Below are positions 60,279 to 60,554 of a stretch of DNA of 64,000 nt, piece by piece. Numbering within the stretch: position 1 is the first letter of the stretch; each line of letters opens with the position of its first letter. The stretch covers positions 3,980,669 through 4,044,668 of the forward strand of contig NC_017770.1 of assembly GCF_000242635.2 (NCBI RefSeq), read 5' to 3'. Source of the stretch: Solitalea canadensis DSM 3403 (GTDB taxonomy: Bacteria > Bacteroidota > Bacteroidia > Sphingobacteriales > Sphingobacteriaceae). A program made the position numbers and the translations under genes. The notes beneath the pieces are model-generated. The model searched no databases and had not been told where the DNA came from. It saw nothing but the letters and a program-made list of their open reading frames with translations.

Positions 60279-60310
60279 TTTGCAACAAATCACACTTCCT
60301 TCTATATTTG
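60279..60310 (+). promoter_or_regulatory. Strong promoter of the tRNA-like gene
   Basis: TTTG (60279-60282), a 20-base spacer and TATATTTG (60303-60310) match the phylum's housekeeping -33/-7 consensus completely. The tRNA-like gene begins about 50 bases after the expected start of transcription. Confidence 0.75.
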
Positions 60311-60365: not shown

Positions 60366-60479
60366 TGTAGGGTGGTGAAATTGGCAGACACACCTCCTTG
60401 TCTCGGTGGCGGAGAGTCCGGAAAATCAAGCCTCGGCTTGGCTAACCGCTCCGTGAAGGTTCGACTCCTTCCCCTACAG
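60366..60479 (+). tRNA. Non-standard class II tRNA-like gene with giant variable arm
   Basis: A cloverleaf of 114 bases. The acceptor stem TGTAGGG/CCCTACA is perfect, and the T arm is GAAGG-TTCGACT-CCTTC. The D arm (GTG/CAC, loop containing GG) resembles tRNA-Leu. The anticodon stem CCTCC/GGTGG has a U·U mismatch; the loop TTGTCTC places GUC (60400-60402) at the anticodon, with an unusual pyrimidine at position 37. The variable arm (60410-60454) is about 45 bases with stems CGGAG/CTCCG, CGG/CCG and CAAGC/GCTTG. The discriminator is G. CCA is not encoded. Automatic tools may call it tRNA-Leu, Asp or nothing; its identity is open. Confidence 0.75.
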
Positions 60480-60489
60480 CAAACTTCAT

Positions 60490-60554
60490 AAGGTTTATTG
60501 ATTGGTACTAAAACAACCTGTCTCCCCGGCAGGGTTTTTAGTTTTATAAACCTT
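60490..60554. other. Long imperfect inverted repeat after the tRNA-like gene
   Basis: AAGGTTTAT (60490-60498) pairs with ATAAACCTT (60546-60554), and ACTAAAA (60507-60513) with TTTTAGT (60536-60542), closed by a further ACCTG/CAGGGT stem around a C-rich loop. It starts 11 bases after the tRNA-like gene. It could be a terminator, a 3' processing signal or a separate element. The DNA between 60555 and 60761 is AT-rich with no gene seen. Confidence 0.6.

Follow-up and report, generated by a model that had tools for sequence, protein, structure and literature searches.

A conserved long-armed tRNA-like RNA beside an AsnC-like regulator gene in Bacteroidota, a probable non-decoding carrier for asparagine synthesis

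In this study, we analyzed a tRNA-like gene of Solitalea canadensis DSM 3403, together with its flanks and its relatives. The window, that is, the whole stretch of 64,000 nucleotides that was analyzed (NC_017770.1, positions 3,980,669 to 4,044,668), carries the gene near its end, and a gene for a regulator of the Lrp/AsnC type diverges from it (Table 1). A putative promoter stands ahead of the RNA, and a trailer element and a putative intrinsic terminator follow. The gene is present as one copy in the single-contig 5.2-Mb genome, as determined by blastn.

Table 1. Features of the tRNA-like gene and its flanks (positions of the window)
Feature	Position	Strand	Description and basis
tRNA-like RNA, 114 nt	60366..60479	+	Sequence, RF00005 match, alignments of relatives
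Acceptor stem	60366-60372/60472-60478	+	TGTAGGG/CCCTACA, 7 pairs, all matched
D stem	60375-60377/60389-60391	+	D arm GTG-AAATTGGCAGA-CAC, Leu-like
Anticodon stem	60393-60397/60405-60409	+	CCTCC/GGTGG, one U.U mismatch
Anticodon loop	60398-60404	+	TTGTCTC; GTC 60400-60402, T37, C38 60404
Variable arm, exactly 45 nt, three stacked stems	60410..60454	+	Sequence; double changes among relatives
Arm stem V1	60411-60414/60449-60452	+	GGAG/CTCC
Arm stem V2	60419-60421/60446-60448	+	CGG/CCG; internal loop between V2 and V3
Arm stem V3	60427-60431/60436-60440	+	CAAGC/GCTTG
T stem	60455-60459/60467-60471	+	GAAGG/CCTTC, all paired; loop TTCGACT
Discriminator G73	60479	+	
Putative Bacteroidota-type promoter	60279..60310	+	TTTG-N20-TATATTTG; sequence
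3' trailer element	60491..60498	+	AGGTTTAT, then ATTGGT; common to part of the family
Putative intrinsic terminator	60517..60540	+	CCTG...CAGG hairpin and T run; sequence, by eye
AsnC-like Lrp/AsnC regulator, 162 aa	59717..60205	-	Divergent from the RNA gene

The gene encodes a complete cloverleaf of class II-like form. Its architecture agrees with the initial annotation, which had described fully paired acceptor and T stems, a D arm like that of tRNA-Leu, a G discriminator, a three-stem variable arm of about 45 bases and a loop with GUC followed by pyrimidines at 37 and 38. The acceptor and T stems are of the 7/5 type both in the window and in the alignment of relatives, and a two-base spacer precedes the T stem. 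The U.U mismatch reported in the anticodon stem is also present and is kept in 27 of the 29 closer rows; in the wider set, 49 of the 84 distinct rows have a standard pair instead, which makes the mismatch a trait of the lineage. Neither ARAGORN nor the fast Rfam scan, both run on the whole window, reported the RNA, and it was not among the 60 matches of an RF00005 search of the whole genome. A local scan gave a match to the Rfam tRNA model RF00005 of 34.8 bits (gathering threshold 29) over model positions 1-71 of 71. Folding of the single sequence was unremarkable (z -1.18; 22 of 200 shuffles equally stable) and was set aside as support for the RNA.

The promoter was called with TTTG-N20-TAnnTTTG, which we take to be the Bacteroidota consensus. 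Of 87 copies of the RNA, 65 have TAnnTTTG in the 160 nt ahead of them, against a mean of 9.4 in shuffles, and in 51 of the 87 upstream regions a TTG lies 16-24 nt before it. The strong promoter claimed initially is a plausible, putative promoter of this type. In the downstream 110 nt, AGGTTTAT was found after 21 of 87 copies and ATTGGT after 24, and a comparable hairpin with a T run was seen by eye after many relatives.

The RNA is a real and widely conserved family of many Bacteroidota, and it is apparently undescribed. Searching 60 related genomes by blastn gave matches in 31, of which some were short and were assigned to ordinary tRNA-Leu. When 295 genomes of the class were scanned with a covariance model, the matches listed included a separate group scoring at least 67 bits over at least 107 nt, and these two bounds were used to define membership. 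The overall tally of 282 of 295 genomes with a match is not the frequency of the family, since most matches listed are 76-87 nt long and below 64 bits, and these were taken as ordinary class II tRNAs after a few had been inspected. Relatives, found across many families in the class, measure 107-194 nt; the 194-nt copy (genome G260) was missed by the 295-genome scan and picked up by the R2 search, so strict filters drop members of the family. Carriers among the matches listed include Mucilaginibacter, Pedobacter, Chitinophaga, Niabella and Algoriphagus, as well as Cyclobacterium, Echinicola, Marivirga, Fulvivirga and Neolewinella. Outside the class, the search with strict filters (E ≤ 1e-11) gave only matches of 84-87 nt and 57-60 bits, which were taken as ordinary tRNAs without inspection. 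A metagenome-assembled genome labelled Ignavibacteriales (locus L244) holds a typical member with a divergent AsnC gene (57% identity), which points to a mislabelled bin or to transfer. Among the class II tRNA matches, one contig (G287:C4, 18835-67971) has five identical-scoring 85-nt matches on both strands over about 50 kb, perhaps part of a mobile element.

Compensatory change in relatives had been named as a check on the gene, and it was found in each alignment. Alignment A2 (29 rows, MAFFT) represents 29 of 39 distinct sequences, with the atypical copies L024 and L026 left out; its structure was drawn by hand after the rows had been inspected and was not fitted to a model. In it, 94.0% of cells pair, 11 of 30 pairs show double changes, and 0 of 500 shuffles matched this. 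L031 and short partial matches had been omitted from the early locus comparison. The fetched copies gave 87 aligned rows, 84 of them distinct, of 107-175 nt. Over these 84 distinct rows (alignment A4, which excludes one ordinary tRNA row of A3), 97.0% of cells pair and double changes occur in 21 of 30 pairs and 300 cells, again with 0 of 500 shuffles. A further sample of named loci (80 of 120 listed; 118 rows, 115 distinct), searched with GTC and C38 fixed and the acceptor free, showed the same pattern; this sample and A4 were fitted to the covariance model. All three helices of the variable arm carry double changes in all three sets. These findings agree with the initial judgment that the gene is no simple pseudogene.

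The arm contains TAAC in 71 of 84 rows, and in longer members an extra GTTGACCAC motif (21 of 84 distinct rows, e.g., L016 1701-1844, L102 and L139; also L207). Some loci hold several copies: L062 (605-1320) is a tandem array of five with 150-bp spacing, and L063 (799-2327) has three about 705 bp apart, each with its own promoter-like region.

Bacterial aspartate identity is described, in the part of PMC9976931 that treats it, as residing in G73, G10, G34, U35, C36 and C38, with G2-C71 as a minor element; Table 1 of that source assigns A73 to tRNA-Leu and C72, among others, to tRNA-Ser, and a passage of PMC4206432 states that bacterial GatCAB recognises U1-A72. Among the 84 distinct rows, U1-A72, G2-C71 and G73 are invariant (84/84 each), GTC is present in 81 and C38 in 82; the named sample gave U1-A72 in 114, G2-C71 in 115 and G73 in 115 of 115 distinct rows. 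Acceptor pairs 3-7 are variable and mostly compensated. G73 together with A at position 72 in every row does not agree with tRNA-Leu or tRNA-Ser. The AspRS determinants G73, G34 U35 C36 and C38 are those of a decoding tRNA-Asp, and the U33 with purine 37 of such a tRNA is not a feature of the family: position 37 is T in 67 rows, C in 8, G in 7, A in 1 and a gap in 1, and position 33 is T in 72, G in 9 and C in 2 of 84, with the window copy having T33 but T37. Two features count against a role in asparagine synthesis. G10 is not conserved among the A4 rows, and G1-C72, said in the same part of PMC9976931 to help the AspRS of E. coli position the acceptor end, is replaced by U1-A72 in 84/84. The organism's own tRNA-Asp has G1-C72 and the loop CTGTCAC, its tRNA-Gln has A1-U72 and its tRNA-Asn has U1-A72. 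Since G73, GUC and C38 are conserved along with U1-A72, the RNA joins AspRS determinants to the GatCAB determinant, unlike the organism's own tRNA-Asp. The base 3' of G73 is C in 87/87 copies, with a full CCA in 4, and most of the organism's own ordinary tRNA genes, among those listed, also have C after the discriminator.

The conserved nucleotides thus suggest the aspartate set plus the GatCAB determinant, placed on a loop that seems unsuited to decoding. The identity, called ambiguous initially, is less so once relatives are considered. A non-translational role, raised as one option, is judged probable; the recoding role offered beside it found no support.

The divergent gene was compared with known regulators. 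Its best solved structure is E. coli AsnC (2CG4, E 3.2e-34), and its best family is NCBIfam AsnC NF008384 at 172.5 bits, under the cut-off of 227; the predicted product is therefore called AsnC-like, below the AsnC equivalog cut-off. Of 56 loci, 37 have such an ORF upstream in divergent orientation, and in the other 19 it was not within the fetched stretch; its spacing to the RNA is 28-211 bp in 36 loci (stop-to-stop frames), with one overlap at a contig end. In 120 further loci, from among the matches listed, AsnC was present in 79, in 76 of them within 400 bp, and was not in the fetched stretch of 41. Every AsnC match in both sets (37 and 79) is upstream and on the opposite strand, and AsnC alone is widely recurrent, other clustered neighbour ORFs recurring in at most 6 of 56 loci. 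No clear shared AsnC box was seen when the upstream regions were compared by eye. AsnC does not require the RNA, since an AsnC-like protein (E ≤ 1e-25) was found in 18 of 37 genomes lacking the RNA as well as in 43 of 43 carrying it. In E. coli, asnC is divergent from asnA. The RNA gene, being divergent from the AsnC-like gene, would occupy the place of E. coli asnA.

Co-occurrence with genes of asparagine and glutamine metabolism was surveyed in 80 hand-picked genomes, at least 95% complete, from a set of 326; RNA-negative picks lean toward families that also contain RNA-positive genomes. The initial split of 42 positive and 38 negative became 43 and 37 when G260 was moved to the positives; G093, with a 76-nt remnant, was kept negative, and G014 (truncated copy) and G219 (C34) were kept positive. 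The 80 genomes are interrelated, and Fisher P values on their counts ignore kinship. AsnRS was found in all 80. gatB was present in 43/43 RNA-positive and 13/37 RNA-negative genomes. Among the 54 genomes with GlnRS over cut-off, all 30 RNA-positive genomes have gatB and all 24 RNA-negative genomes lack it; with G014 recounted as negative, the numbers with gatB are 29/29 and 1/25. The remaining 26 genomes, without GlnRS over cut-off, all have gatB (13 RNA-positive, 13 RNA-negative), so the 13 gatB-positive genomes without the RNA need GatCAB for Gln-tRNA.

The RNA is also nearly exclusive with AsnA and E. coli-type AsnB. AsnA occurs in 1/43 RNA-positive vs. 7/37 RNA-negative genomes, and AsnA or E. 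coli-type AsnB in 1/43 vs. 17/37. E. coli-type AsnB here means a TIGR01536 match ending at model position 384-389 in a frame of 528-578 aa; of 14 in all, three were read as sequence and one was compared with structures, and the frame of G167 holds a stop. For the protein of RNA-negative G006, comparison with E. coli AsnB (1CT9) gave E 1e-253. TIGR01536 matches over cut-off occur in 37 of the 43 RNA-positive genomes, the frames being about 600-660 aa long in most cases, and these AsnB-like paralogs may or may not make free asparagine. The best match of the long paralog of G117 is a hydroxyamidotransferase (E 9.7e-53; E. coli AsnB E 2.1e-44), and the paralog sits, by eye, between glycosyltransferase-like and epimerase-like genes. 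Given these matches, absence of an asparagine synthetase is firm in six RNA-positive genomes only, which have neither AsnA nor a TIGR01536 match over cut-off. One of the six is the complete genome of the window, in which AsnRS, AspRS and GatB are present. In the family of the window (f1), gatB is present in all 15 RNA-positive genomes, and neither AsnA nor E. coli-type AsnB occurs in any of them; among the 10 RNA-negative genomes, gatB is missing from 9, and 8 encode AsnA or E. coli-type AsnB. Counting against a role in asparagine synthesis, 8 of the 24 genomes without gatB and RNA also lack AsnA and E. coli-type AsnB. Two genomes (G007 and G111) have AsnRS and are without the RNA, gatB, AsnA or any TIGR01536 match over cut-off; they are possible asparagine auxotrophs.

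Sites where the RNA is lost or damaged were also compared. The two genomes of family f49 tested both have AsnA, and both copies have lost G34: one has the loop CTCTCTC, and the other is a 76-nt remnant with CTATCTC and without the long arm. These copies represent decay where the RNA is not needed, AsnA being present. In G023, which lacks the RNA and gatB and has an E. coli-type AsnB, the syntenic site is empty: nothing scored as the RNA between the neighbours, which were located by tblastn (pdhB-like 83% identity, asnC 72%, amidohydrolase 56%). Some damaged copies count against asparagine synthesis on the RNA. The sole copy of RNA-positive G014, which has gatB and GlnRS (L024 1456-1564, beside asnC), is truncated at the 3' side, lacks both the T arm and the 3' strand of the acceptor stem, and runs into the trailer and terminator. 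RNA-positive G219 has lost G34, and the GTC triplet is lost at L118 2437-2543 (G192; loop CGTTCTA) and at L119 2457-2602 (G152; five-base loop deletion).

The specificity of AspRS was considered at a single position, which we take to separate discriminating from relaxed enzymes. The residue is His in the P. aeruginosa Asp/Asn enzyme (4WJ3) and Leu in the organism's own AspRS, as it is in E. coli 1C0A and in 1EFW; in 6WOM, the closest solved AspRS, it is Lys. Both RNA-positive and RNA-negative genomes have Leu here (Phe or Met in 3 of 11), so the residue does not track the RNA.

Taking the observed family, its covariation and near-invariant nucleotides, the AsnC linkage and the gatB co-occurrence together, we consider it probable that the RNA is a tRNA that does not decode and is dedicated to tRNA-dependent asparagine synthesis, with charging by AspRS, amidation by GatCAB, release of the product and control by AsnC. 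AspRS would recognise G73 and the GUC...C38 loop and attach aspartate to the RNA, and GatCAB would read U1-A72 and amidate the aspartate to asparagine; we infer from sequence that the RNA is transcribed, charged and amidated, and AspRS is assumed to tolerate the long arm. The pyrimidine or G at 37, the variable position 33 and the large arm would keep the RNA off the ribosome, where a GUC anticodon charged with asparagine would lead to misreading of Asp codons. The structured arm may dock AspRS or GatCAB. Asparagine would then be freed and feed AsnRS, and the conserved position of the divergent AsnC-type regulator suggests that it controls the RNA gene. Release is the weakest step of this mechanism. 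By our estimate, spontaneous ester hydrolysis looks too slow for growth with a few hundred RNA molecules, so a hydrolase or a direct hand-over would be required, and the arm with its TAAC and GTTGACCAC motifs is a candidate dock for such a partner.

Several other explanations were weighed against asparagine synthesis on the RNA. A decayed tRNA-Leu gene would account for the Leu-like D arm and the two-base spacer before the T stem, yet conservation in many families with compensatory changes, and the C encoded after G73 in every copy, leave it almost no chance, and it was rejected on the covariation. A bacterial Y RNA (YrlA), a class expected to co-occur with Rsr/Ro60 (TROVE), was considered too and was set aside once the linkage to AsnC and gatB emerged. 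Allo-tRNAs are defined by acceptor/T stems of 8/4 or 9/3 and by serine identity. That the RNA is such a tRNA, or a recoding tRNA acting on the ribosome, was suggested by the long arm and G73, to which the formal Asp anticodon in the loop may be added; it is hardly credible here, as the stems are 7/5, position 37 is not A in 83/84 rows and position 33 is not U in 12/84 (one gap in each), and GTC is a sense anticodon already read by two ordinary tRNA-Asp. The serine identity itself was rejected on the 7/5 stems and the Asp determinants. A relaxed AspRS together with GatCAB could instead produce asparagine on the ordinary tRNA-Asn, leaving the RNA with an unrelated role. The organism's tRNA-Asn has the U1-A72 that this needs, and a passage of PMC4206432 deems the route possible for genera, Bacteroidetes included, with AsnRS, GlnRS and GatCAB and no Asn synthetase. 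The one-to-one link of RNA and gatB among GlnRS-positive genomes would then be unexplained, and AspRS looks discriminating at the position compared above, in RNA-positive and RNA-negative genomes alike, so we regard this explanation as very improbable.

Two further explanations keep the same RNA and change its purpose. The RNA might be a donor, charged with Asp or, by way of GatCAB, with Asn, for another non-ribosomal reaction such as cell-wall, lipid or peptide modification. The same nucleotides and the same gatB association would be expected, and the AsnB-like proteins over cut-off in 37/43 RNA-positive genomes might supply free asparagine otherwise; we nevertheless hold a donor role to be unlikely, with AsnC the only widely recurrent neighbour (37/56, next clusters 6) and the RNA nearly exclusive with AsnA or E. 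coli-type AsnB. The RNA might also be a regulator or sensor whose charging or amidation state informs AsnC, AspRS or some other partner of the Asp/Asn supply and which carries no metabolic flux, as the divergent AsnC gene and the elaborate conserved arm, with GTTGACCAC in part of the rows, would allow. Sensing alone would leave unexplained both the persistence of gatB beside GlnRS only where the RNA is present and the tandem amplification to five copies, and we would give it a small chance.

Asparagine synthesis on the RNA has parallels in known systems. As in the asnC-asnA pair of E. coli, an AsnC-type regulator is divergent from what would be an asparagine-synthesis gene, but here a tRNA-like gene stands in asnA's place. 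Staphylococcus has non-proteinogenic tRNA-Gly species of ordinary size that serve peptidoglycan synthesis with Fem enzymes; these too come from tRNA genes specialised for work outside the ribosome and are at a disadvantage in translation, but have no structured arm, no amidation and no AsnC. Allo-tRNAs and tRNA-Sec share the long variable arm and G73, and differ in serine identity, in branches of 8/4, 9/3 or 8/5, and in ribosomal use. The closest route in its chemistry, that on tRNA-Asn in Deinococcus, Thermus, Bdellovibrio and S. aureus, likewise combines AspRS and GatCAB, U1-A72 and AsnRS, there without Asn synthetase, as summarized in a section of PMC4206432. That route uses the decoding tRNA-Asn (GUU) as its carrier and depends on a non-discriminating AspRS. 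The carrier proposed here is, in contrast, a separate RNA with an Asp anticodon and a loop poorly suited to decoding, for which an ordinary AspRS would suffice. By the count of the same section, 18 genera, some of them Bacteroidetes, have AsnRS, GlnRS and GatCAB while lacking an Asn synthetase, and asparagine synthesis on tRNA-Asn is regarded there as possible for them (PMC4206432); we infer that the RNA is an alternative carrier for such genera. Among the matches listed in a search of open-licence PMC text, no description of the RNA was found.

The broader proposition, that a purpose-built non-decoding tRNA under AsnC control replaces an enzyme gene as the main scaffold for free asparagine across many Bacteroidota families, has in our view an even chance of being right. 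The analysis adds a structured RNA family that ARAGORN and the fast Rfam scan left unreported. If asparagine synthesis on this RNA is true, a tRNA would be dedicated to amino-acid metabolism and not to translation across a large bacterial group, which would suggest a source of asparagine for organisms that have AsnRS and in which no asparagine synthetase is recognised, and would explain the persistence of GatCAB beside GlnRS.
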